Origin: Actinospica acidithermotolerans
GTDB lineage: Bacteria > Actinomycetota > Actinomycetes > Streptomycetales > Catenulisporaceae
DNA length: 42,599 bases
Reading direction: 5' to 3'
Assembly: GCF_018139625.1 (NCBI RefSeq)
Contig: NZ_JAGSOH010000064.1
Coordinates: forward strand, 1 to 42,599
This document shows, piece by piece, positions 8,070-31,691 of the stretch. The translations under genes were made by a program, and so were the position numbers. Under the pieces are notes generated by a model, which worked only from the letters and a program-made list of their open reading frames with translations, was not told the origin of the DNA and did no database searches. Numbering within the stretch: position 1 is the stretch's first letter; every line of letters begins with the position of its first letter.

Positions 8070-10970
8070 ATGACCGTTCTCGAAGACAGACCGCGCCCGA
8101 AACCCCTGCTGACGGGCCATCAGGACGCGGACACCGGGGTCCTCCCGGTCATCCAGCCGGATCCGATCGCCGCGCCGCCCGGAGAGGTGGCGCCCTGGGC
8201 GCTGTGGCTGAGCCGGTTCGGGCTGCTCGCCGTCGCCGTGGTCATCGCGGTCGAACGGCCCGGGCCGTGGCTTCCCGCCGCGGCCTTCGCATTCGCCCTC
8301 GGCCTGGCCTGGACGGCCGGCTGGCGCGGGCGGCAGCTGCGCAACATCGCCTTCGCCCTGGCGGTCTTCACCAGCGGCGTCAACTACCTGTCGTGGCGCT
8401 TCACGGTCATCGCGATCGGCGGGCATCCGCTGCCGGGCTGGATCATCGGCATCCCGCTCTACCTCGCCGAGATGCACGCCGCGATCCACACGATGGGCCT
8501 GCACATCGGCCTGTGGCCGCGCAACCCCCCGGCCGAGCCCGAGGCCTTCTACGGCCGCCGGTTCGTGCCGGAGGACCGTCGCGTCGACCCCTTCAAGTAC
8601 CCGGTGTACGTGTTCGTGCCGACGGTGGACGAGGGCGAGGAGGTGCTGCGCCCGACGCTGACCGGCATCCTGGCGGCGCGCGCCGCGTACCTCGCCGAGC
8701 ATCCGTACACGGATATCACGGTCGTCGTATGCGACGACGGGTTCGTCGCGAAGAAGGACACGGTCCCGGAGATCTCGGACCTGTGCCGCGAGCTCGGCGT
8801 GCTGCACGTGGTGCGCGACGTCGGCGGCGGCGCGAAGGCGGGCAACATCAACAACGCGCGCACGGTCGTCGGCGCCGAGGGCGACGTGCTGCTGTGCATC
8901 TTCGACTGCGACCAGGTGCCGCGCGAGGACTTCTTCCTCAAGCTGATCCCGGGCTTCGACGACCCGGAGGTCGGCTGGGTGCAGTCCGGCCAGTTCTACG
9001 GCAACCGGAAGAACCCCGTCGCCCGCTGGGCCGACGACCAGCAGTCGCTGTTCTACCGGCTGCTGTGCCCCGGCAAGGCGGCGCACAACTCCGCGTTCAT
9101 CTGCGGCACCAACTTCCTGATGCGCGCCACGGCGATCGACTCCATCGGCGGCATCCCGACCGGCTCGATCACCGAGGACTTCGCCGCCTCCATCCGGATG
9201 GCCGCGAACTGGCGCTCGGTGTACTACACCGGCATCCTCGCCGTTGGCCTCGGCCCGCTGGACCTGGCGTCCTTCTTCAAGCAGCAGGACCGCTGGGCGC
9301 GCGGCACGCTCAACATCATGTGGGACCACTGGCGCGACCTGCTGCTGCCCGCGAAGAAGGGCGAGAAGGGCCTGACCGCCCAGCAGCGCGCGCACTACCT
9401 GCTGGCCACGACGCACTACTGGTGCGGGGTGCGCGACCTGATCTTCTGTATCGCGCCGATCGCGTTCGTGCTCACCGGCATCAGCGGCGTGCGCGGCGCG
9501 ACGGCCACCGACTTCCTGATGTACTTCGTGCCCTACTTCGCGCTCTCGATCGCGGGCTTCTGGCACGCCGCGTGGGACATCACGACGTGGCGCTGCATCA
9601 TCATCAACTACGGCTCGTTCCCGGTACTGCTGCAGGCGGCGTTTCGCGTCGTGATCGGCCGCAAGGGCGACTTCACGCTCACGCCGAAGAAGCGCGGCAC
9701 GATGTCGCCGTGGCGGACCGCGCAGCTTCACCTCATCGTCGTCGCGGGCTGCCTCGTCGCGCTGGTGAAGCTGGCGCTGAGCTCGGGCGGCACGGCGTAC
9801 TGGCTGGCCGGTTTCTGGCTGCTCTACCTGTGCATGATGTCCGGGATGCACATGATCCTCGTGGTCCTGGACACCCGCCAGGCCCGCAAGGAGCGGCGCG
9901 AGGCCGAACTGCACGGCGGACACGCGCCGGCCGAGGCGCTGATCCCGCGGCGTGACCCGCACCAGCGGAGGCACAAGGGGCGGCGACCGGCGCGCCGGCT
10001 GCCGAAGCCGCGCACGGCCGTCGCCGGGCTCGTGGTCGGCGGCGCGATGCTGTTCATCCTGGACACCAGCACGCTCGCCGCGCACTCCGACCCGCTGCAC
10101 CTGACCGCCGCCTCACTGCCCGCGCATCCGTACGTCGGCGTAGGCGCCCTGGCCACGCCCTACGGCGGCAGCGGCGTGAAGGCGATCGAGAAGCAGCTCG
10201 AGGTCACGTTCGGCACCACCGCGCGGACGCAGGAGATAGGAGACTCCTTCGACTACGGCTGGGCCGACTCGATCTCGTCGAACGGCGGCGTGCCGTGGCT
10301 CACGATCGTGTTCTCGCAGAACGGCAAGTCGACGCTGAACTCGGCGCTCACCGCGATCGCCAACGGCAGCGACGACGCCCAGATCAGCTCGTGGGCGCAG
10401 CAGATCACCGCGTACGGCAAGCCGCTGTACCTCACGGTCCTGCCGCAGGCCGACCGCAACTACGCGGCGAGCTCGGGCGTGGCCAACGGCGGCATCCCGC
10501 AGGACGTCTCGCGGGCGTGGACGCACATCAGGGCGCTGTTCACGGCGGCCGGCGCGAACAATGTCTCGTGGGTCTGGACGCCCGGCGACCCGGCCCACGA
10601 CCAGGCGTACACCCCGCCCGCGAGCCAGATCGACGCCGTGGCGCTGACGCTGGCCGAGTTCCCGAAGACGACCTGGGCGGACCCGGCGGCGCAGCTGGCC
10701 GCGGCGGCGGCGGCGCACCCCGGCAAGCAGCTGATGCTCCAGGTCTCGCTCGACGGCACCCCGGCCCAGCGCGTCGCGTGGCTGAAGAAGCTCCAGGCGG
10801 CGATCGCCGCGCGGCACGACGTGGCGGCGGTGGTCTACCAGGAGGCAGGCCCGGTGAGCGATCTGGCCGGCAAGGACGCCCAGCCGTGGGCGCTGACCGC
10901 GGACAAGCAGACCGTGGCCGAGTTCCAGCAGCTGGCGGCGGCGATGGCGAAGGTGGACAACGGTGGCTGA
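8070..10970 (+). CDS. cellulose-synthase-like GT2 fused to a GH26-like domain
   Basis: A 966-residue membrane protein predicted to polymerise a beta-glycan from a nucleotide sugar. About four N-terminal membrane segments (46-150) precede the GT2 domain, with D222-D223-G, D279-x-D281, T368-E-D370 and Q405-Q-D-R-W409, the complete processive-synthase set. About four more membrane segments run 455-600, then a basic linker and another membrane segment at 652-668 that should place the C-terminal domain outside. Residues 690-960 resemble the GH26 proteins elsewhere in the window (AGANNVSWVWTPGD against EGATNVIWIWDPND), but the catalytic motifs are replaced: LPQADRN where HEFNGN is expected, QVSLDGT where AETAVES is expected. 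It is probably a non-catalytic glycan-binding or guiding domain. ATG 8070 follows a GGGGA site. The next gene overlaps by 8 bp. The polymer is unknown. Confidence 0.88.
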   Translation: MTVLEDRPRPKPLLTGHQDADTGVLPVIQPDPIAAPPGEVAPWALWLSRFGLLAVAVVIAVERPGPWLPAAAFAFALGLAWTAGWRGRQLRNIAFALAVFTSGVNYLSWRFTVIAIGGHPLPGWIIGIPLYLAEMHAAIHTMGLHIGLWPRNPPAEPEAFYGRRFVPEDRRVDPFKYPVYVFVPTVDEGEEVLRPTLTGILAARAAYLAEHPYTDITVVVCDDGFVAKKDTVPEISDLCRELGVLHVVRDVGGGAKAGNINNARTVVGAEGDVLLCIFDCDQVPREDFFLKLIPGFDDPEVGWVQSGQFYGNRKNPVARWADDQQSLFYRLLCPGKAAHNSAFICGTNFLMRATAIDSIGGIPTGSITEDFAASIRMAANWRSVYYTGILAVGLGPLDLASFFKQQDRWARGTLNIMWDHWRDLLLPAKKGEKGLTAQQRAHYLLATTHYWCGVRDLIFCIAPIAFVLTGISGVRGATATDFLMYFVPYFALSIAGFWHAAWDITTWRCIIINYGSFPVLLQAAFRVVIGRKGDFTLTPKKRGTMSPWRTAQLHLIVVAGCLVALVKLALSSGGTAYWLAGFWLLYLCMMSGMHMILVVLDTRQARKERREAELHGGHAPAEALIPRRDPHQRRHKGRRPARRLPKPRTAVAGLVVGGAMLFILDTSTLAAHSDPLHLTAASLPAHPYVGVGALATPYGGSGVKAIEKQLEVTFGTTARTQEIGDSFDYGWADSISSNGGVPWLTIVFSQNGKSTLNSALTAIANGSDDAQISSWAQQITAYGKPLYLTVLPQADRNYAASSGVANGGIPQDVSRAWTHIRALFTAAGANNVSWVWTPGDPAHDQAYTPPASQIDAVALTLAEFPKTTWADPAAQLAAAAAAHPGKQLMLQVSLDGTPAQRVAWLKKLQAAIAARHDVAAVVYQEAGPVSDLAGKDAQPWALTADKQTVAEFQQLAAAMAKVDNGG

Positions 10971-12576
10971 TTCGCTGACGGTCATCCACACGGTCGACCC
11001 TGATTCGTACATCGGCCCGAGTCCGTGGGAGCGGTTCGCCGCGCACCGGGTGGGCCGCTGGCTGATCGGCCGGCTGCCGCTGCTCGCGGTGCTCGCGCTG
11101 CAGATCGCACTGGCGATCCGGCTGCACAACACCGCGTTCGAGGACGAGGCGCTGTATCTGTACGCCGGGCACCATGAGATCGCCTGGCTGCTGCACCACC
11201 AGGCCACGTACGACAACTACTCGACGTACTTCTCCGGCGCGCCGTTCCTCTACCCGGTCCTCGGCGCCGCCGCCGACGGCCTGTTCGGGCTCGAGGGAGC
11301 GCGCGCACTGAGCCTGATCTTCATGCTCGGCGCGACGTGCTGCGTGTGGGGCGTGACCAGGCGGCTCTACGGACGCCCGGCGGCGGCCTGCGCGGCGGCG
11401 CTGTTCGCCGTCGCCGCGCCGACGCTCTTCCTGAGCAGGCTCGCCACGTACGACCCGATGTCGCTGTTCCTGCTCGCGTTCGCGCTCTGGATCGTCGTCG
11501 CGACCGCACGCGGAATGGCGCCGCTGGTGCTGCTCGCCGTGCCCCCGGCGGTGCTCGCGGTCGGCACCAAGTACGCGGGTCTGCTGTTCATCCCGACCAT
11601 CGCGCTCGTAGCGGTGTTCGTCGGCAGGTACGGCGGCCGCGTCAAGGGCACCGGTGAGGCGAGGCGCCGCGGCTGGCTCGCCTCGATCGGCCGAGGGCTG
11701 CTGTTCACGGGCTCGTTCGGAGTACTCGTATACGGCTGGCTCAAGCTGCTCGGCCACTCGTACGTCGCGGGCATCACGTCCACGACCACGAACCGCGCCA
11801 GCGGCGGCGACTCGCTCGGCTACATACTCAAACTGGCCGCCGAGCTGGGCGCGGGCGTCGCGATTCTCGCCTTCGCCGGCGTCTACGTGGACGCGAGACT
11901 GGCCCGGAGGAACGGCGAGAGCCGCGCGGCCGTCCTGGTCCGTATCCTGCTCAGCAGCGCGCTGGCGTTCACCGCGTTGCTGGCCCCCGCGTACCAGGTG
12001 CACCTGCACACGGCCACGTCCCTGCAGAAGCACGTCGGCTTCGGCCTGCTGTTCGCGGCGCCCGTCGCCGGGGTCGCCCTCGCGGGCCTGCTGCGCATCG
12101 GCGCCCGCGACCCGCGTCGACTCTTCGCGGGCCTGATGGTCTGCCTCGCCCTGACCTGGGCCGCGATCGTGCAGTCGACGCAGCTCTACGCCGGCTGGCC
12201 CAACTCCAGCCAGATGGTCGCCGACCTCAAGACCCAGGTGCGGCCGGTCACCGACCGCATCCTCGCCGAGGAGGACGAGGTCCCGCGCTACTACCTCGAC
12301 GACCTGACCGAGCCGTACCAGTGGTACAGCACCTTCTCGTTCACGTACACGACCAAGAAGGGCCAGGTGCTCTCCGGCATCCCCGCCTACGAGCAGGCCA
12401 TCGCCGACCAGTACTTCGGCCTCATCGTGCTGCGCTTCGGCCCGACGGCCGGCGTCGACAACACGATCGACGGCGACCTGATGGCCCAGAAGGGCTACAA
12501 GCTGATCGCGAAGGTCAAGGACAGCGACGAGTACGGCACCGGGTACTACTGGATCTGGCGCTCGGACAGCTCCTGA
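10963..12576 (+). CDS. PMT/ArnT-type membrane glycosyltransferase
   Basis: A 537-residue polytopic protein of the GT-C fold, family 39/83-like, expected to use a polyprenyl-phosphate sugar donor on the outer face of the membrane. The conserved acidic pair after the first helix is at E60-D61-E62 (AFEDEALYLYAGH). About ten or more hydrophobic segments follow, then a soluble C-terminal region from about residue 420. It is a close paralogue of the protein at 26885-28960, sharing LYLY-GH, YFSGAP-LYP, TLFL-LATYD and HLHTA-SLQKHVGFGL. GTG 10963 overlaps the previous gene by 8 bp, so translation is coupled. It may glycosylate the polymer or an acceptor. A hairpin terminator follows. Confidence 0.85.
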   Translation: MADSLTVIHTVDPDSYIGPSPWERFAAHRVGRWLIGRLPLLAVLALQIALAIRLHNTAFEDEALYLYAGHHEIAWLLHHQATYDNYSTYFSGAPFLYPVLGAAADGLFGLEGARALSLIFMLGATCCVWGVTRRLYGRPAAACAAALFAVAAPTLFLSRLATYDPMSLFLLAFALWIVVATARGMAPLVLLAVPPAVLAVGTKYAGLLFIPTIALVAVFVGRYGGRVKGTGEARRRGWLASIGRGLLFTGSFGVLVYGWLKLLGHSYVAGITSTTTNRASGGDSLGYILKLAAELGAGVAILAFAGVYVDARLARRNGESRAAVLVRILLSSALAFTALLAPAYQVHLHTATSLQKHVGFGLLFAAPVAGVALAGLLRIGARDPRRLFAGLMVCLALTWAAIVQSTQLYAGWPNSSQMVADLKTQVRPVTDRILAEEDEVPRYYLDDLTEPYQWYSTFSFTYTTKKGQVLSGIPAYEQAIADQYFGLIVLRFGPTAGVDNTIDGDLMAQKGYKLIAKVKDSDEYGTGYYWIWRSDSS

Positions 12577-12601: not shown

Positions 12602-12638
12602 GGGGCGGGCGGGCGGCCGGAAGCCGCCTGCCCGCCCC
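12602..12638 (+). terminator. hairpin terminator after the first glycan module
   Basis: Arms of 16 bp, GGGGCGGGCGGGCGGC and GCCGCCTGCCCGCCCC, with one G-U pair and a CGGAA loop, start 26 bp after the stop codon. No long T tract follows, as is common in high-GC actinobacteria. It separates the GT2-PMT pair from the glucanase gene. Confidence 0.75.
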
Positions 12639-12665
12639 TCGCCGTACCGGAACCCGGCGAACCGC

Positions 12666-12694
12666 TTGACAGCCGTGTTACGCGGCCGTAAACA
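12666..12694 (+). promoter_or_regulatory. sigma-70-type promoter of the GH16 glucanase gene
   Basis: A perfect -35 TTGACA (12666-12671), a 17-bp spacer, and a -10 TAAACA (12689-12694). The start site should fall around 12700, on or beside the palindrome below, leaving an untranslated leader of roughly 80 nt. Confidence 0.7.
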
Positions 12695-12705
12695 GTTCCC
12701 TGATT

Positions 12706-12719
12706 GGAGAGCGCTCTCC
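12706..12719. promoter_or_regulatory. LacI-family-type operator, GGAGAGCGCTCTCC
   Basis: A perfect 14-bp palindrome with the central CG typical of LacI-family operators. It resembles, but is not identical to, the CebR cello-oligosaccharide operator of Streptomyces (TGGGAGCGCTCCCA). Lying just after the -10, it could block transcription of the glucanase until an oligosaccharide inducer is present. No LacI regulator is encoded in the window. Confidence 0.6.
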
Positions 12720-12782
12720 CGATCCGCGCCACGCTCCGTCCGCACGCTCACACCGCGCGCTGCGCTGAAAGGGAACTCCAGC

Positions 12783-14936
12783 ATGCCCGCACACTTCCGC
12801 GCCTTACTGACCAGCGCGGCCCTGCTCGCCGGGAGTCTGACCGGCGCCGCGGCCGCGGCCCTCGCCCTCGCACCGGCCGCCTCGGCCGCCGCCGTGCCGC
12901 CCGCGCCCGCCGGGTGGACCACGGTGTTCAGCGACGACTTCGCCGGGGCGGCCGGGACCGCGCCCTCGGCGCAGAACTGGTTCTACGACATCGGGACCGG
13001 CTACGGGACCGGCGAGACCGAGCAGACGACGAGCTCGACCGGCAACGTGTACGTGGACGGCAACGGGCATCTCGTGCTCAAGGCCGTCGACAGCGGCGGA
13101 ACGTGGACGTCCGCGCGGATCGAGAGCACCCGCGACGACTTCCAGGCGCCGGCCGGCGGCGAGCTCGAGATGACCGCGTCGATCGAGCAGCCGAATCCGG
13201 CGAACGGGCTCGGCTACTGGCCCGCCTTCTGGGCGCTCGGCTCGCCGATGCGCACCGGCGGCGGCTGGCCGACGTCCGGCGAGATCGACATGATGGAGGA
13301 CGTCAACGGCCTGAACGAAGCCTCGCAGACGCTGCACGACGCCGCCGGAAGCAGCGGGCACGCGCTGATGTCTTGCCCTGATACGAGCTCGTCCTGCCAG
13401 AGCGGCTACCACACCTACTCGGTCATCCTGAACCGCCAGAACACCAGCGCCGAGACGCTCGAATTCCTGATGGACGGCACGGTGGAGAGCACCATCACCG
13501 AGGCCTCCGTCGGCACGACGGCGTGGCAGGAGGCCGTCGACCACGGCTTCTTCATCATCTTCGACCTGGCGATGGGCGGGAACTACCCGAACGGCGTCTA
13601 CGGCTCGACCACCCCGACCTCGGCCACGACCTCCGGCGCGGCGATGAGCGTGGGCTACGTCGCGGTCTACGAGGAGGGCGGCAACTCGACGCCCACCGGC
13701 ACGGCCACCGCCACCGGCGCGCTCACCGGCATCAACGGCCTGTGCGCGGCCGACCAGGGCGCGCTGAACACCGAAGGCAACCCGATGGTGCTCGCCGCCT
13801 GCGACGGAGACCCCGGCGAGCAGTGGTCGCCGTACTCGGACGGCACGGTTCGCGTCCAGGGCGGCTGCCTCGACGTGGTCAGCGCGGGAACGACATCGGG
13901 CACCGACGTCGACTGGTATCCGTGCAACGCCTCGAACGCGCAGAACTGGACCTACGAATCCAACGGCGAGCTCGTCAATCCGAACTCGGGGCTCTGCCTC
14001 ACCGATCCGGGCGGCAACACGGGTTCGAGACTTGACATCGAGACCTGCGCCGATACCGCCCAGCAGCAGTGGAAACTGCCCACCGGCACCTCCACCGGAG
14101 GCGGCTCGGGAACGATGACGGTCACCGCCTCGCAGTACGCCGCGCAGAATTCGACCGGCACCGAGGCGACCTCCGACACCGGCGGCGGCAACGACGTCGG
14201 CTGGATCAACTCGGCGAGCTGGCTGGAGTACACCAACGTCGACTTCGGGTCCGGATACAGCGGCGTCGAGGTGCGCGACGCCTCGGCGGTCACCGGCACC
14301 GCCATCGGCTCCATCCAGTTCCGGCTCGACTCCGAGACCGCGACACCGTTCGCGACCGTGAACGTGAACGGAACCGGCGGCTGGCAGACGTGGGTGACCA
14401 GCGCTGATACGGCATCGTCGCCGACACCGACCGGCACGCACACGCTCTACGTCACTTTCACGACGTCGACCGGCGGCAACTTCGTCAACGTCAACTGGTT
14501 CGAGTTCACCGGCGGCAGCACGAGCGCCGCGAGCCCGGTGACGGTGACGGCCTCGCAGTACGCCGCGCAGAATTCGACCGGCACCGAGGCGACCTCCGAC
14601 ACCGGCGGCGGCAACGACGTCGGCTGGATCAACTCGGCGAGCTGGCTGGAGTACACCAACGTCGACTTCGGCAGCGGCCTGTCCGGCAACGTCGCGGCGC
14701 GCATCGCCTCAGCCGCCACCGGCACGAACATCGGCACGGTCCAGTTCCGCCTGGACTCCCTGACGGCCACCCCGTTCGCGACGGTGAACGTCAGCGGCAC
14801 CGGCGGCTGGCAGACCTGGGTCACCGCGACCGGCACGGCGAGCCCGATCCCGAGCGGCACGCACACGCTCTACGTCACCTTCACGACGTCGACGACCGGC
14901 AACTTCGTCAACGTCAACTGGTTCAAGTTCAGCTAG
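12783..14936 (+). CDS. secreted GH16 endo-beta-glucanase with ricin-type lectin and two CBM6 domains
   Basis: Predicted extracellular endo-beta-1,3 (or 1,3-1,4) glucanase of 717 residues. Residues 1-36 form a Sec signal peptide ending near AASA/A. The GH16 domain (about 45-300) carries the signature GEIDMMED, with E167 nucleophile, D169 and E172 acid/base. Residues 312-432 form a ricin-B/CBM13 domain with three repeats and the motifs EQW, QNW, QQW. Two CBM6-like domains follow (about 445-576 and 585-717), joined by short Ser/Thr/Gly linkers. The reading frame is open farther upstream, but ATG 12783 is chosen because it starts the signal peptide and lies beyond the promoter and operator. It has its own regulation separate from the GT2 genes, and may remodel the endogenous polymer or digest external beta-glucan. 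Confidence 0.93.
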   Translation: MPAHFRALLTSAALLAGSLTGAAAAALALAPAASAAAVPPAPAGWTTVFSDDFAGAAGTAPSAQNWFYDIGTGYGTGETEQTTSSTGNVYVDGNGHLVLKAVDSGGTWTSARIESTRDDFQAPAGGELEMTASIEQPNPANGLGYWPAFWALGSPMRTGGGWPTSGEIDMMEDVNGLNEASQTLHDAAGSSGHALMSCPDTSSSCQSGYHTYSVILNRQNTSAETLEFLMDGTVESTITEASVGTTAWQEAVDHGFFIIFDLAMGGNYPNGVYGSTTPTSATTSGAAMSVGYVAVYEEGGNSTPTGTATATGALTGINGLCAADQGALNTEGNPMVLAACDGDPGEQWSPYSDGTVRVQGGCLDVVSAGTTSGTDVDWYPCNASNAQNWTYESNGELVNPNSGLCLTDPGGNTGSRLDIETCADTAQQQWKLPTGTSTGGGSGTMTVTASQYAAQNSTGTEATSDTGGGNDVGWINSASWLEYTNVDFGSGYSGVEVRDASAVTGTAIGSIQFRLDSETATPFATVNVNGTGGWQTWVTSADTASSPTPTGTHTLYVTFTTSTGGNFVNVNWFEFTGGSTSAASPVTVTASQYAAQNSTGTEATSDTGGGNDVGWINSASWLEYTNVDFGSGLSGNVAARIASAATGTNIGTVQFRLDSLTATPFATVNVSGTGGWQTWVTATGTASPIPSGTHTLYVTFTTSTTGNFVNVNWFKFS
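14127..14671 (+). repeat. 122-bp identical direct repeat in the two CBM6 domains
   Basis: Bases 14127-14248 and 14550-14671 are identical over 122 bp, offset by 423 bp (141 codons). Outside this block the two CBM6 domains differ at many positions. This suggests a tandem domain duplication followed by local gene conversion. Confidence 0.9.
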
Positions 14937-18888: not shown

Positions 18889-19057
18889 CTAGGCCGTGTC
18901 TTCAGACTATCGCCGGGTCCGCGACGCCTGCCACGCACGCTCGCGGCGTTGCAGGGGCGGTTGCAGACGACCGAGTATGCGCCCGCCCCTGCGCCTTGCG
19001 AGCGCACGCGTCAGACGCCGCGGCCTGATCCGACGCAAGTTTGAAGACACGGCCTAG
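18889..19057. mobile_element. palindromic miniature element, copy 1 (MITE-like)
   Basis: Both ends are CTAG, with 20-bp terminal inverted repeats differing at one position (outer sequence CTAGGCCGTGTCTTCA). TA at 18890-18891 and 19055-19056 is the likely target duplication. The interior is a long imperfect palindrome, with an apical perfect 10-bp stem GCAGGGGCGG (18951-18960) paired with 18983-18992. It carries no transposase. The right CTAG supplies the TAG stop of the GH26 gene. A second copy in opposite orientation is at 37758-37925. The roughly 200 bp from 18690 to 18888 show no gene. Confidence 0.85.
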
Positions 19058-20007
19058 GAAAGCGCCAGCAGGAAGCCCGAGTTCCCGTCGACCCGCTTGC
19101 GGAACTCGACCGCGCCGACCGGATGGTCCTTGAGCGTGTAGTCCTTGCCGTTGGTGTCGAAGTCGAAGTAGACCAGGGCCTTGACGGTCTTCGGATTGGC
19201 CGCCGCGAAGTCGAAGATCAGGTTCATCGCGGCGGCGGTGTCCGGCTGCGGTTTCGCCGGCGCCCATTCCGCGACCATGAGCGGCTTCTTGCGCGCGGCG
19301 GCGAACTTCACGGTGTCGTCGAGTCCGCCCGCGCCGGTCATGATGAACGAGGTCACGGCGCTCTGCGGGTACGCGTCGATGCCGAGCCAGTCGACGTACG
19401 CGTCGCCGGGGTACCAGGTGTCGGGGCTGAGGCCGCCGGGCCCGTTCCACAGCGTGGGGCACCAGACGAACGCGGCGTTCGTCGCGCCCTCCTCCTGGAA
19501 TATCTCGTACACGTGCCGCCAGGAGGCGATGAACTGGGCCGGGGTCACCCCCGGCAGGTTCCAGTCCGGGTACCAGCTCGCGTTCATCTCCCAGTCGAGC
19601 CGGACGAAGACGGCGCCGCCGTGCTTCTTCACCGCCTGCGCCTGGGCCCTGAGATACGCGTCCTTGCCGCCGTCGGTGATCTGGCCGCCGGTCATCGGCA
19701 GGTTCCACGAGATCATCGGCGCCATCCCGGAGCGGGTCGCGGCGTTGTCGAGGATCGGCTGCACGCTGCCGTCCGGCGTCGTCCACTGGTCGTAGATCGC
19801 CGGGTGCCGGCCGGAGCCCAGGCCGGCCGCCGCGTCGAAGGCGTCGAGCCGGCCGATGTCCGTGGACACCCCGAGGTACACCTGCCCGTCGGCGGGCTCG
19901 TACTTCGCCCCGGCCGGCTTCGAGCGGGACGCCCACGCCGACCAGGCGCCGACGGCCAGGCATGCGACCACCGCTATTGTGATCAGGTTCCTGACGCGTC
20001 GGCTCAC
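19054..20007 (-). CDS. membrane-anchored GH26-like glycoside hydrolase
   Basis: A 317-residue protein with an N-terminal signal anchor (VRNLITIAVVACLAVGAW, residues 5-22), so the catalytic domain should face outside. The GH26-type acid/base motif is LDWEMNASWYP with E140; the nucleophile motif is MVAEWAP with E247. Both are present, unlike in the GT2 fusion. GH26 enzymes cleave beta-mannans, some beta-1,3-xylans or mixed-linkage glucans, so the substrate is open. The reading frame is open far upstream through ppdK, but GTG 20007 is chosen because the anchor starts there. It follows ppdK by 20 bp and is probably cotranscribed. Its TAG stop lies in the CTAG end of the miniature element. Confidence 0.82.
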   Translation of the reverse strand: MSRRVRNLITIAVVACLAVGAWSAWASRSKPAGAKYEPADGQVYLGVSTDIGRLDAFDAAAGLGSGRHPAIYDQWTTPDGSVQPILDNAATRSGMAPMISWNLPMTGGQITDGGKDAYLRAQAQAVKKHGGAVFVRLDWEMNASWYPDWNLPGVTPAQFIASWRHVYEIFQEEGATNAAFVWCPTLWNGPGGLSPDTWYPGDAYVDWLGIDAYPQSAVTSFIMTGAGGLDDTVKFAAARKKPLMVAEWAPAKPQPDTAAAMNLIFDFAAANPKTVKALVYFDFDTNGKDYTLKDHPVGAVEFRKRVDGNSGFLLALS

Positions 20008-26884: not shown

Positions 26885-28960
26885 CTACTTGCGAACCCAG
26901 ACGTAGGACCAGGCGGGCCCGCCGCTGGTCGGGGTGTAGATCTTCGCGGCCAGCCGGTAGATCGGCGAGTTGTAGAGAGCCTGGGCGATGGCCTGCTCCG
27001 CCCCCGGGTTCGCGCTGAAGTCGTAGCTGACGACCTGGAAGTAGCCGGCCTGGATGGCATCGGCGTAGGCGGCGTCGCCGGTGATGTACTTACCCTGCTC
27101 GTCCCACCAGCCGAAGGAGAAGGCGTCGGTGATCTGCGAGGGCTCCGCGTACGGGTCGCCGCGCAGCAGGTAGATCGCGTTGGGTCCGTCGGCGAACAGG
27201 TAGTGCGCACCGGGCTTCTGGTACTTCACCAGCGCGGCGACCGCGGCGTACGAGTTCGTCCAGCTGTGGAACATCGACAGGGACTGGCCCATGCCGAGCG
27301 CGAAGGTCAGTACCAGTACGCCGATGCCGAGTTGCACGCGGTGGAAGTGCGGCCCGACGATGCGCACGAGGCCGTAGCCAGCCAGCGGCGCCGCGAAGAA
27401 CAGCCCGAAGCCGACGTGCTTCTGGAGCGAGACCGCAGTGTGCAGATGCGCTTGGTAGAGCGGGGCCAGCAATGCGGTGCCGGCCAGCAAGACGGCCAGC
27501 GCCGTGCGCTGCCAGCGGTCCGGCGAGACCGCCGGATGGGCGTGCCGCCGCGGAAGCCTTACCACGAACACGGCGCCGATCAGCGCAATGACGAAGACGA
27601 CGCCGATGTACTGGCCCGCCTGCTTCATCACGAGCGTCAAGGTGTCCGTGCCGTGGGCCCGGTTCGTCGTGGTCGCGCTGATACCTGCCGCCGCCGACGT
27701 GCCGGCGAGCCGGTACCCGGTGTAGAGGACGCAGGCCGTGCCGAGGCTCAGCGCGATCGGCCGGATCACGGCCCAGGCTCGGGAATACGGCGCGGCCGCC
27801 AGGAACGCGAGGACGAAGATGGTCGGCACGAACAGCAGCGAAACGTATTTCGTGCCCACCGCGAGCGCGGCGGGGAAGACCGCCAGCAGATAGAACGGGT
27901 AGTTGCTCGCGGCGAAGCGCACGACGAGGAACGTCGCGAGGGCCAGCAGGAACAGTGCGGGCGCGTCGTACGTGGCGAGACCGCCGAGGAAGAGCGTCGG
28001 CTCGGTGCACGAGAAGAGCGCCGCGGCGCACAGGCCGGCCCGCGTGCCGAACAGCCGCCGGGTGATCAGGTACAGCAGTCCCGTGGTGGCGAGCATGAAC
28101 AGCAGGCTGAGCAGGCGCGCCGCGAAGATGCCGCCGATCTGGTCGGCCAGCGCGCCGAGCGGCGGGTAGAGCACGGGGGCGCCGGAGAAGTACGACCAGA
28201 AGTCGATTCCGGTGGACGTGCCGTGGAGCATGTGGGCCAGCTCGAGGTGTCCCGAGTACAGGTAGAGCGACTCGTCCACGAACGGGGAGTTGTTGTTGCG
28301 CAGCGAGAGCACCGCCTGGACGGCCATGATCGACCCGACCAGCGCCCGGCGCGGCCAGGCGCCCGTCCAGAACCCGGGACGCTGGGACTTCGCGGCCTCG
28401 GAGTCGTCGTCCTCGATCTTGATCGCGCTGATCAGCTCGGTCTCGGCGTGCATGGCCTTGGCGCGCAGCGACTCCGGCCGCATCAGGACGCCGGTCTCGT
28501 CGAAGGGCACGTGGTCCTGCCAGCGCGGCGGCCCGTGGAAGCCGCCGTCGTCCGGCTTGCCGCCGGGCTGCTTGCCGCCGGCCGGCTTCGCGCCGCCGGG
28601 AGCCTGCGGTCGCGTGTCGGGCGCCGCGGGCTGCTCACCTGTTGCGGGCTGCGTACCCGCCGCGGGCTGCGCGGTTTCGGCCTCGACGTCGGCCGAGCCG
28701 TTCGCGGCGGTCGCCGACCGCGGCGGGGAGGCGAACTCCGGCGGCACCGGAATCGGCTCGCGCTGCGGGTGGATCACGGCGACCGCGGCGGGGATCACCT
28801 GGGTGCTGTCCGGATCGGCGTCGAGCGCGCCGGTTCCGGCGCCCGCCTCGTCACCGGGCTCGTCCATCCATTCGGCGAACCGGTCGCGCAGGGAGGGCTG
28901 CGCCGGCGACATCAGCCGCGTCTCGGCGGACGATTCCGTCTCGATTCCTTCGTCGCTCAT
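26885..28960 (-). CDS. PMT/ArnT-type membrane glycosyltransferase with long N-terminal tail
   Basis: A 691-residue GT-C fold protein and paralogue of the one at 10963-12576. It has an extra N-terminal region of about 185 residues rich in Pro, Ala, Gly and charged residues, likely cytoplasmic and disordered. The acidic catalytic pair follows in FVDESLYLYSGHLEL. Then come about ten or more membrane segments and a soluble C-terminal part. Shared blocks with the paralogue include YFSGAP-LYPPLGA, TLFLGGLATYDA, AVGTKY, TTTNRA and HLHTAVSLQKHVGFGL. It should use a polyprenyl-phosphate sugar at the outer face. The frame stays open upstream, but ATG 28960 is chosen: it overlaps the GH26 stop as ATGA, giving a coupled GT2-GH26-PMT operon. 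Confidence 0.87.
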   Translation of the reverse strand: MSDEGIETESSAETRLMSPAQPSLRDRFAEWMDEPGDEAGAGTGALDADPDSTQVIPAAVAVIHPQREPIPVPPEFASPPRSATAANGSADVEAETAQPAAGTQPATGEQPAAPDTRPQAPGGAKPAGGKQPGGKPDDGGFHGPPRWQDHVPFDETGVLMRPESLRAKAMHAETELISAIKIEDDDSEAAKSQRPGFWTGAWPRRALVGSIMAVQAVLSLRNNNSPFVDESLYLYSGHLELAHMLHGTSTGIDFWSYFSGAPVLYPPLGALADQIGGIFAARLLSLLFMLATTGLLYLITRRLFGTRAGLCAAALFSCTEPTLFLGGLATYDAPALFLLALATFLVVRFAASNYPFYLLAVFPAALAVGTKYVSLLFVPTIFVLAFLAAAPYSRAWAVIRPIALSLGTACVLYTGYRLAGTSAAAGISATTTNRAHGTDTLTLVMKQAGQYIGVVFVIALIGAVFVVRLPRRHAHPAVSPDRWQRTALAVLLAGTALLAPLYQAHLHTAVSLQKHVGFGLFFAAPLAGYGLVRIVGPHFHRVQLGIGVLVLTFALGMGQSLSMFHSWTNSYAAVAALVKYQKPGAHYLFADGPNAIYLLRGDPYAEPSQITDAFSFGWWDEQGKYITGDAAYADAIQAGYFQVVSYDFSANPGAEQAIAQALYNSPIYRLAAKIYTPTSGGPAWSYVWVRK

Positions 28961-30051
28961 TTGGCCGTCGTCACCGCCCCGCTGAAGTCGCCCGAGGACA
29001 GCGCGCTCTTGAACGCGCCCAGGAGCGTGGGACGGTTCTCGATCCGCCAGTCCCCGCCCTTGTCGAAGTCGTACCAGACGAACCCGACTATGTCGGAGTG
29101 CTGCTCCACCGCGTCGAAGAGCTGGGTCAGCGATTCGAGCTCGTGGGAGCCCGACTCCACCGCCGTCTCCGCGATGATGAACGGCTTCTTGGTGAACCCG
29201 CGGACCTCGGTGAGCGTCGGAAGGTAGAGGGAGGAGTAGGTGTTCGGGCCGTCCTGCGTCCAGTAGCCGGTGACCCCGACCCAGTCCACGTACGCGTCGC
29301 CGGGGTAGTAGTCGGCGAGATGCACGCTCGAGACGGGATAGATGTCGTTGGGGTCCCAGATCCAGATGACGTTGGTCGCGCCCTCGTCGGTGAAGATCTT
29401 GTGGATGTGCTGCCAGGCCGCGACGAACTCGGCGGCCGTGGTGCCGGTCGTTCCCCACGGGTACCAGTTGCCGTTGAACTCGTGGCCGAAGCTCAGCGCG
29501 ATCGGCACGTCCAGGGAGCGCACGGAGGCCGCGAACGCCTTGACGTACGTGTCGGAGGCGCCCGAGGCGATCTTCGCCAGCGCGGTGTTCCAGGGTTCCC
29601 ACACCACGAAGTCCAGCGCCCCGTAGGACCAGGCGTTGGAGGCCGCGGAGGTGTCGAACGAGGTCCCCCAGGCGACGTAGTGCCCGATGATGTCCGGCTT
29701 CGTGCCGACCCAGGAGGCGAACTGCTTGGCCGGCGTCAGCGACTCGGGGGCTCCGTTGATCTCGACACCGAGGTACTTCTTACCCGGCTGCAGCAGCGGG
29801 GAGACGTCGTAGGCCGGCTTGAGTCCGGCCGTGCTTCCGGCCGAGCCCTTCGCCTGCACCTGCCCGGCCCCCGTCCACAGCGGCGCGGGCCCGCTGCCCA
29901 CGGCGGTACCTCCGGCGACCGGATGGTACGGATCGTTCCAGTCCGCCGCCGAGGAGACGGTCGAACACGCGCAGAGCAGCGAGCCGAGAAGGGCCATCGC
30001 CGCCAGGAGGATGGGCACCCGCCGGCGCCCGGTCGTTCCGTGCCGCATCAT
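28957..30051 (-). CDS. GH26-type glycoside hydrolase lipoprotein
   Basis: A 364-residue predicted extracellular lipoprotein. The signal sequence has the hydrophobic stretch VPILLAAMALLGSLL and a lipobox LCAC with C29 as anchor; Cys at -2 is unusual. The GH26 domain (about 90-350) has both catalytic glutamates: H190-E191 in SFGHEFNGNWYPWG (acid/base) and E295 in FIIAETAVES (nucleophile). ATG 30051 overlaps the stop of the GT2 gene as ATGA, and its own stop overlaps the PMT start in the same way. It is the probable chain-cutting partner of the GT2 synthase, comparable in role to the cellulases in cellulose operons. The polymer is unidentified; beta-mannan or mixed-linkage glucan are typical for GH26. 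Confidence 0.88.
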   Translation of the reverse strand: MMRHGTTGRRRVPILLAAMALLGSLLCACSTVSSAADWNDPYHPVAGGTAVGSGPAPLWTGAGQVQAKGSAGSTAGLKPAYDVSPLLQPGKKYLGVEINGAPESLTPAKQFASWVGTKPDIIGHYVAWGTSFDTSAASNAWSYGALDFVVWEPWNTALAKIASGASDTYVKAFAASVRSLDVPIALSFGHEFNGNWYPWGTTGTTAAEFVAAWQHIHKIFTDEGATNVIWIWDPNDIYPVSSVHLADYYPGDAYVDWVGVTGYWTQDGPNTYSSLYLPTLTEVRGFTKKPFIIAETAVESGSHELESLTQLFDAVEQHSDIVGFVWYDFDKGGDWRIENRPTLLGAFKSALSSGDFSGAVTTAK

Positions 30052-31691
30052 GCTTCTGCTTTCTGGGGTTGGCGCAGCACCCGCGCGGCCGTCGCCGCGT
30101 AGAACAGGCCGGAGGCGAGGAAGAGGGCGTAGTCGATCGGGTCCCCGTTCCTCATCCGCCACAGCGCCGTGCCGACCCAGGCCGCCGCCGTCACGCAGGT
30201 CCAGCCGATCATCCCGATCCAGAACCGGCGGTTGCGGCCCTGCTTCTTCGACGAGGAGCCGGTGGGCTGCCAGCCCATGCGCTTGTTGCGCAGCACGTCG
30301 TAGATCGTGAAGACGTGGGCCCAGCCGTAGACCATCCGGCACGCGTACGCCTCGAGCCGGTAGGGCGCGCGGTGCCACAGCGGGAAGAGCAGGCCGGCGT
30401 AGATGAGCCCGGGGATGACCCACACCAGGTTCGCCACGCGCATCTCCTGCGGCCAGAAGATCATCAGCGCCATCGGCACCAGTGGGACGATGAACGTCGC
30501 CAGGGCCGTGTGGACGTAGTAGAAGAACCCCGACAGGTAGCTCAGCCGCACGCGCCAGGGCAGCTTCGTGCCCCAGAACTTCCTGCTGCCGAGCATGCTC
30601 ATGTTGCCGGAGCACCACCGGTACTGCTGGTTGACGTAGGCGGCGACGTTGTCGGGGCACACGCCGGTGGACAGCGCGAGCGGGAGGTAGCTCAGCCGCC
30701 AGCCCTTGGTGTACAGGTCGAAGCCGGTGTGCACGTCCTCGGAGTGCTCGATCAGCGTCATGCCGCCGTTGGCCTCGAGCGCGGCCCTGCGGTAGACGGC
30801 GCACGTGCCCACGCAGATCGCGCCGTCGTAGTTGGACAGCGAGGTCTGGATGTTGCGGTAGAACAGCTCCTGCACGGCTCCCGCGCCGCGCTCGAGCCAG
30901 CTCTGCTGGTCCAGCACCCGGAAGAACTGCGGGGTCTGCACGATGCCGAGCGTCGGGTCCGCCTCCATGTGCGGCAGGATCTCGTCGAGGAAGTCCGGCC
31001 GCGGCGCGAAGTCGGCGTCGAGCAGCAGGATGTACGGCGCGTGCGAGATGCGGTAGCCGTAAAGCAGGTTGCCGGCCTTCTTGTACCAGCCGCGGTTGGC
31101 CCGGCCGGCGTAGACGAACCCGAACTCCCCGGCCATCCGCTGCAGCTTGGGGCTGGAGGAGTCGTCCAGCACGTACGCGGTGACCCGGCCCTTGTAGTGC
31201 TCGCGCAGGGCGGCGACGTTCTCCCAGGTGTTGCGCAGCACCTCGACCGGCTCGCCGCAGACCGGGAGCAGCACGTCGACGGCGGGGTAGGACTCCGGGG
31301 CCCAGGCGGCCGCGAGCCTGCGATGGCCGGCTATGTCGAATTCCGGTGCGGTCGCCGTCACCACCTGCGAGATCAGAAAGTAGACGACGGTGAAGCCGAG
31401 GAACGGAACGTAAGACCACATCCACGGAGAGAGCCGCGTCATCAGGATCTGGCTGTATACGAGTGCAATGAAGCTCAGCGAGGAAAAGATCAGCAGGATC
31501 CTGTTGCCGCGTCTCGCGTACGAGTATTTCTCCTGGTCGTCCGGGGGGACCGGAAGCAACCCGCCCTCATCGTGGCGCACAATCGCCGGATTCGCCGGCG
31601 GCCTCGTCGCGGCGGCGGGACCTTCATATGCCGCCGAGGGTCTGCGTGACCGTTTTGCCTGGCCGCGCCGCGTGCCGAGGGCTTCAGACAT
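30048..31691 (-). CDS. cellulose-synthase-like GT2 glycosyltransferase
   Basis: A 547-residue processive beta-glycan synthase candidate. Two N-terminal membrane segments (about 64-84 and 92-112) precede the GT2 domain with D176-D177, D225-x-D227, S317-E-D319 and Q355-Q-Y-R-W359, the full catalytic and acceptor-site set (SED replaces TED). At least four membrane segments follow (about 375-540). There is no PilZ domain, so direct c-di-GMP control is not evident. ATG 31691 starts the operon GT2-GH26-PMT; only a weak GAAG lies upstream. It is divergent from the SDR gene across 240 bp. It differs from the GT2 at 8070 in motifs and lacks the fused GH26-like domain, so the two may make different polymers. 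Confidence 0.9.
   Translation of the reverse strand: MSEALGTRRGQAKRSRRPSAAYEGPAAATRPPANPAIVRHDEGGLLPVPPDDQEKYSYARRGNRILLIFSSLSFIALVYSQILMTRLSPWMWSYVPFLGFTVVYFLISQVVTATAPEFDIAGHRRLAAAWAPESYPAVDVLLPVCGEPVEVLRNTWENVAALREHYKGRVTAYVLDDSSSPKLQRMAGEFGFVYAGRANRGWYKKAGNLLYGYRISHAPYILLLDADFAPRPDFLDEILPHMEADPTLGIVQTPQFFRVLDQQSWLERGAGAVQELFYRNIQTSLSNYDGAICVGTCAVYRRAALEANGGMTLIEHSEDVHTGFDLYTKGWRLSYLPLALSTGVCPDNVAAYVNQQYRWCSGNMSMLGSRKFWGTKLPWRVRLSYLSGFFYYVHTALATFIVPLVPMALMIFWPQEMRVANLVWVIPGLIYAGLLFPLWHRAPYRLEAYACRMVYGWAHVFTIYDVLRNKRMGWQPTGSSSKKQGRNRRFWIGMIGWTCVTAAAWVGTALWRMRNGDPIDYALFLASGLFYAATAARVLRQPQKAEA

Follow-up and report, generated by a model that had tools for sequence, protein, structure and literature searches.

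A BcsA-like membrane synthase of glycosyltransferase family 2 (GT2) in Actinospica acidithermotolerans continues, within the same polypeptide, into a C-terminal domain that is predicted to have the fold of glycoside hydrolase family 26 (GH26) and lacks both catalytic glutamates of that family. The gene lies near the start of the stretch analysed here, the 42,599 nucleotides of contig NZ_JAGSOH010000064.1 (positions 1 to 42,599, assembly GCF_018139625.1), which is called the window below. By analogy with other synthases, it is rather probable that a former glycanase now serves the synthase as a tethered partner that binds the chain without hydrolysing it, an in-cis analogue of BcsB or GlxA. Searches of open-access literature brought up no description of such a GT2-GH26 fusion or of pseudo-glycosidases of synthases.

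The GH26 Fold of the C-Terminal Domain

The preliminary description of this DNA placed a GH26-like domain at positions 10137-10970, which correspond to residues 690-966 plus the stop codon of the open reading frame (ORF) 8070-10970. Assignment to the GH26 fold is borne out by phmmer, by profile-profile alignment and by two AlphaFold models. The phmmer search with the C-terminal domain matched CtLic26A, a lichenase of Clostridium thermocellum, at E 5e-6. A profile built from six fused members (see below) found the same enzyme at 1e-5, and hhalign against five intact GH26s gave a probability of 99 and E 3e-18. The Pfam model of GH26 (PF02156) does not match the window domain at E<=1, and with a limit of E<=0.1 it finds none of the six fused members. 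The GH26-wide residues D769, N831 and D855 are kept. So is the neighbouring NNVSWVWTPGD, correctly singled out earlier as a surviving fold marker, at residues 830-840 (10557-10589).

The alignment-based model, made from 28 sequences, has a predicted local distance difference test score (pLDDT) of 84 and a predicted template modelling score (pTM) of 0.86. When it is superposed on structures in the PDB the best match is again CtLic26A (Z 28.4, root-mean-square deviation 2.5, 258 residues, 19% identity). The next matches are GH26 xylanases and mannanases at Z of about 20-22 and GH5 enzymes at Z 19-20. Because the GH5 enzymes come so close behind the GH26 mannanases, only the CtLic26A match is clearly separate. 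This model had GH26 relatives in its input and so leans to the GH26 fold. Therefore, the domain was also folded without an alignment. The single-sequence model is poor (pLDDT 54, pTM 0.56), yet CtLic26A chains take the first seven places among its PDB matches (E 8.6e-9 to 4e-8, TM-score about 0.5), one of them as the fusion part of a transporter structure. As modelled, then, the domain has the GH26 (beta/alpha)8 fold, with a homology that exceeds chance. The similarity of fold to a lichenase does not fix the polymer specificity.

Loss of Both Catalytic Glutamates

At the acid/base site the register at the end of beta-4 is free of gaps (HEANGD or HEFNGN over PQADRN), and the glutamate is replaced by Gln793. 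At the end of beta-7, where the nucleophile lies, the register is ambiguous by one position. HMMER places Gln891 there with a one-residue gap and hhalign places Val892 there without one, but neither residue is acidic. In a MAFFT alignment of 28 sequences the acid/base glutamate is present in 27/27 relatives and the nucleophile glutamate in 26/27. The preliminary description had read HEFNGN and AETAVES in both intact GH26 proteins of the window. These motifs belong to one of them, and the other (19054-19971) reads WEMNAS and AEWAP.

The loss extends to every homologue found fused to a GT2. At the acid/base position the six fused domains have Gln in three cases and Ser in three, and at the nucleophile position (gap-free register) Val in three, Leu in two and Phe in one. 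Gln at 793, as described earlier, is a feature of the three Actinospica domains; it is not conserved in the second genus, where Ser takes its place (P-S-V-D-R-N-Y) and the nucleophile site reads LLVTLAA or LLVTFSA. The comparison was widened to 79 GH26-like domains (E <= 1e-8 and 60% model coverage, with weaker, shorter and duplicate hits dropped), a set that excludes 24 of the 45 viral loci (L101-L124). Both glutamates are lost in 6/6 fused domains and 0/73 unfused ones; the unfused homologues keep the acid/base glutamate in 70/73 cases and the nucleophile in 72/73. No GT2-fused GH26 with intact glutamates was seen among the retrieved loci, the only place where one was sought, through tblastn hits and gene calls. 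We infer from the sequences that the domain has given up the hydrolysis of glycan.

A conserved Glu-to-Gln substrate trap at both sites was considered as an explanation and discarded, since in the second genus the acid/base position is occupied by Ser and the nucleophile site by Thr followed by Leu or Phe. The beta-6 tyrosine (domain position 183), which 26 of 27 relatives have and the remaining one replaces by Phe, also appears to be lost in the fused domains. However, an aromatic residue (Phe or Tyr) lies two positions further on in all six, which makes the apparent loss a question of loop register.

A separate and partial loss of GH26 catalytic residues was seen in three unfused GH26-like proteins from one family (L063, L064 and L068, in G439, G319 and G419). 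Their acid/base residue is Asp, Gly or Asn (SRDMD, QSGMD, QPNMD), and the nucleophile glutamate is kept.

The Synthase Module and the Tether

The N-terminal module matches PF13632 at E 1e-22 and TIGR03030, the BcsA model, at E 1e-59. The latter score is 202 bits against a cut-off of 699, and for this reason the module is BcsA-like rather than BcsA. The DD, DxD, TED and QxxRW motifs by which processive GT2 enzymes of the BcsA/CesA type are recognised are all intact (VCDDG at 220, DCD at 279, TED at 368, QQDRW at 405). So is FTLTPK, which we take to correspond to the FxVTxK gating-loop motif of BcsA. A Pfam scan at E<=1 found no PilZ (cyclic di-GMP) domain in the module and no BcsB family member among the window proteins.

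BcsA-like synthases have eight membrane helices; the hydropathy scan of the fused protein gave five segments above threshold. The last of its helices, residues 651-669, is the putative membrane tether that had been proposed earlier. Seven Lys or Arg residues fall within the 15 positions before this helix and none within the 15 after it. By the positive-inside rule, this asymmetry would place the C-terminal domain outside the membrane. The second-genus proteins, read by eye, have hydrophobic stretches at the equivalent place.

Distribution of the Fused Gene

Six fused orthologues were found in two genera, each joined to a GT2, and the five counterparts of the window gene are likewise one open frame each (910-1011 residues). 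In 99 genomes covering A. acidithermotolerans and its relatives, full-length matches occur only in Actinospica (3/3 genomes), the other two being 82-83% identical to the window protein. Eleven further genomes of the family gave no full-length match, and five of them matched in the GT2 part alone. A search of 394 genomes of the class found the domain in three genomes of a second genus (E 7e-62 to 7e-65; next best 2e-15), that is in 3/13 genomes of that genus and 3/35 of its family. A profile search of the order, over the same 35 genomes, again gave these three, all below E 1e-100, and in addition one GH26 at 1e-12. Among 396 genomes sampled from the phylum, a list that does not include the other five orthologue genomes, A. 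acidithermotolerans alone matched (next best E 3e-18). The locus-relatedness search missed the second-genus orthologues and is unfit for counting fused relatives. In viral contigs, two peptide patterns revealed no relatives of the pseudo-domain.

Neighbouring Genes and Unfused Relatives

The fused gene is followed by a PMT_2-type glycosyltransferase gene (Table 1), a homologue of which adjoins the fused gene in 6/6 loci. The same three parts also occur as separate genes. Five unfused GT2-GH26-PMT_2 trios were found in four loci, and three of these trios are in the A. acidithermotolerans genome, each with an intact GH26: one in the window (26885-31691) and two sets on contig C55 (L076). Of the other two, one is in Actinospica (L079) and one is on an IMG/VR contig of 110 kb that is classed as viral and carries the complete trio (L080). 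The latter may be bacterial DNA or cargo beside a prophage. Among 38 loci with an unfused GH26, whose flanks are of unequal length, a GT2 hit is present in 10 (the window, L035, L076, L079, L080, L083, L141, L174, L175 and L183) and a separate PMT_2 hit in five. Since unfused GH26 enzymes accompany some GT2 synthases of this kind, descent of the fused domain from such an enzyme is plausible.

The association of these GT2s is not exclusive to GH26, because GH6 or GH81 genes lie close to related GT2s elsewhere in the class (L143:5996-6946, L144:5410-6483, L146:7208-9196). The accompanying hydrolase seems to be interchangeable. At L141 the parts have been fused another way: one ORF of 1016 residues (8805-11855, minus strand) joins GT2 and PMT_2, with two separate GH26 genes nearby.

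Table 1. Features of the fused gene and of the genes compared with it (window coordinates).
Feature	Position	Strand	Basis or remark
Fused synthase gene, 966 aa (amino acids): GT2, linker, membrane helix, GH26-like pseudo-domain	8070..10970	+	single open frame
BcsA/CesA-type GT2 membrane synthase module, aa 1-600	8070..9869	+	PF13632, TIGR03030, motifs
Lys/Arg-rich linker, aa 601-650, presumably cytosolic	9870..10019	+	charge distribution
Last membrane helix (tether), aa 651-669	10020..10076	+	hydropathy 1.77
GH26-like pseudo-glycosidase domain, aa 680-966	10107..10967	+	sequence searches and predicted structures
Acid/base site LPQADRN, aa 791-797; Gln793 (10446-10448) replaces Glu; D795, R796, N797, Y798 conserved	10440..10460	+	
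Nucleophile site QVSLDGT at beta-7 end, aa 891-897; Gln891/Val892 where GH26 has Ala-Glu or similar	10740..10760	+	
PMT_2-type membrane glycosyltransferase	10963..12576	+	PF13231 E 7e-6; overlaps the synthase gene by 8 bp, provided the GTG start is correct
Second intact GH26 (WEMNAS, AEWAP), for comparison	19054..19971	-	no GT2 hit within ~9 kb
PMT_2 glycosyltransferase of the unfused trio	26885..28960	-	PF13231 E 2e-13
Intact GH26 of the unfused trio (HEFNGN, AETAVES); start provisional	28957..30045	-	PF02156 E 7.5e-14
GT2 of the unfused trio, for comparison	30048..31691	-	

Further genes nearby were noted in passing. Window 12633-14936 (plus strand) encodes a secreted-looking protein with ricin-B lectin and CBM6/CBM35-like modules, whose N-terminus has no PF00722 match and which we take, by eye, to be GH16-like there (motif EIDMMED). 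At L073 a GH16 gene (PF00722 E 2e-13) adjoins the fused synthase operon; by the gene calls, L071 and L072 have a different kind of ORF in its place. The GH26 gene at 19054-19971 adjoins an ORF that by eye resembles pyruvate phosphate dikinase.

Proposed Role and Alternatives

What might a glycosidase fold without its catalytic glutamates do on a synthase? In the mechanism we propose, a GH26 glycanase fold has been joined to a processive synthase of the BcsA/CesA type and would sit on the outer face of the membrane. It would no longer hydrolyse glycan, and its cleft would still contact the chain as it leaves the synthase channel. In this way the domain might act in cis as the extracellular partner that is a separate membrane-anchored protein in other cellulose-type synthases (BcsB, GlxA, CcsB), steering or holding the chain so that the PMT_2 transferase can decorate it. 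Its likely source would be a GH26 of the type that other loci of this genome encode next to GT2 and PMT_2. Binding of sugar by the domain is a prediction from analogy.

A different possibility is that the domain is a relic, a once-active GH26 that has been decaying without function since the fusion. Both catalytic residues are indeed gone, and in the tree a branch (100/100) separates the six fused domains from the rest, their stem measuring 1.97 changes per site. A stem of this length would also be expected after loss of catalytic constraint. However, the frame has stayed open in six genomes of two genera, even though the second-genus domains are only 39-44% identical to that of the window, and 79/287 domain positions are invariant across the six. 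Moreover, in three pairs within Actinospica the ratio of nonsynonymous to synonymous substitution rates (dN/dS) is 0.34, 0.35 and 0.42 for the domain, compared with 0.19, 0.28 and 0.14 for the GT2 part. The domain is under purifying selection and not simply decaying, and a functionless relic is highly improbable.

Several observations nevertheless weigh against chain binding. The dN/dS values mean that the domain evolves faster than the synthase part, and the loops of the catalytic face are no more conserved than those opposite (27/82 versus 9/27 positions). Both would suit a barrel whose task is to stabilise the synthase, to bring about oligomerisation or to attach to polymers of the cell wall, without gripping the product. 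The one loop that was tested argues otherwise. In the acid/base loop (domain positions 112-130), where the six share the motif LPxxDRNYxASSxVAxGGxPxD, 13/19 positions are invariant against 66/268 elsewhere (Fisher p 1.4e-4, a descriptive value since the loop was picked after inspection of the alignment). We regard a purely structural module as unlikely. Another difficulty is posed by two acidic residues that none of the six lacks, E722 where beta-2 ends and D795 two positions beyond the acid/base site. They lie at or near the active-site face and could form a new catalytic pair. The domain would then be a re-wired enzyme that might, for example, transglycosylate the growing chain or hydrolyse it with inversion. 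E722, D733, D795 and D812 recur in every one of the six but, in contrast to D769 and D855, not throughout the GH26 relatives; the D795-D812 loop is strongly conserved as well. However, none of the six has an acidic residue at the beta-7 position, and intact Paractinoplanes GH26s (L037, L038, L040) also have Asp-Arg at the place of 795-796, in WEMDRPN. Therefore, D795-R796 alone is no sign of new catalysis, and we consider a re-wired enzyme unlikely.

Other points against a chain-binding partner lead to no particular rival. The exact substitutions differ between the two genera, and only six orthologues, in two genera, are known. A functional BcsA-BcsB complex reportedly requires no more of BcsB than its membrane anchor (PMC11022532), and thus an extracellular domain need not be essential. 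Yet in the same source the extracellular regions of GlxA are described as needed for full activity of CslA (PMC11022532), so analogy alone does not predict whether the domain is essential. Finally, descent from the clade of trio GH26s was tried and does not fit the midpoint-rooted tree, which puts the pseudo-clade outside that clade and joins it by its long stem to a single GH26 (L048) at 94/89.

With these points weighed, a tethered chain-binding partner is still the reading that we prefer. The observation in the preliminary description is confirmed and its overall interpretation partly supported; that the domain guides or senses the emerging chain is plausible by analogy. We are more doubtful about a wider scenario, in which a secretion partner arose from a synthase-accompanying glycanase that was welded on, lost both glutamates and became an in-cis chain guide. 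This would be a further independent origin of the role of BcsB, GlxA and CcsB, and we hold it to be possible rather than probable. The case bears on how synthase partners arise and act, as those three are reportedly not homologous (PMC11022532). Here the candidate partner sits in the same chain as the synthase and is recognisable as a former glycanase. Unfused trios with an intact GH26 in the same genome allow a comparison, which makes the idea of a hydrolase turned chain-holder testable with one protein.

Comparison with Known Systems

The nearest solved structure is that of CtLic26A (2cip/2bv9/2bvd), with which the domain shares its barrel fold. Unlike CtLic26A and GH26 in general, the domain is without both catalytic glutamates, falls below the Pfam GH26 model and is fused to a GT2 synthase. 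WpsE is a GH26 reported from the wps-1 exopolysaccharide cluster of Actinoplanes missouriensis (PMC13390465), and it too is encoded within a polysaccharide-synthesis cluster, but as a separate protein. The three Paractinoplanes GH26s that were retrieved keep both glutamates.

According to the published accounts, described cellulose-type synthases use a second partner, and no homology is reported among BcsB, GlxA and CcsB (PMC11022532). The likeness to BcsA-BcsB lies in a BcsA-type GT2 with DxD, TED and QxxRW and in an extracytoplasmic, carbohydrate-related part that is predicted to be carried on a membrane helix. BcsB is described as required for BcsA activity, with regions that resemble carbohydrate-binding domains (PMC11379886). 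In contrast to that pair, the fused protein has no PilZ domain called, and its partner part is in cis and a GH26 barrel rather than the carbohydrate-binding-domain-like and flavodoxin-like BcsB. CslA-GlxA of Streptomyces and CcsA-CcsB of Clostridium are similar in being Gram-positive synthases whose second partner has no relation to BcsB. GlxA is reported to be a transmembrane-anchored extracellular partner of CslA (PMC11022532). It differs from the fused domain in being a separate protein, a radical copper oxidase.

Another parallel comes from plants. CTL1 and CTL2 are chitinase-like proteins in which chitinase activity is said to be absent; they are described as binding glucan and as important for the production of cellulose (PMC6530356). 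They suggest that an inactive glycosidase fold can serve cellulose synthesis through glucan binding. As in the fused protein, a glycosidase fold is tied to polymer synthesis, although the catalytic loss is here a prediction from sequence, and CTL1 and CTL2 differ in belonging to family GH19, in being separate proteins and in being eukaryotic.

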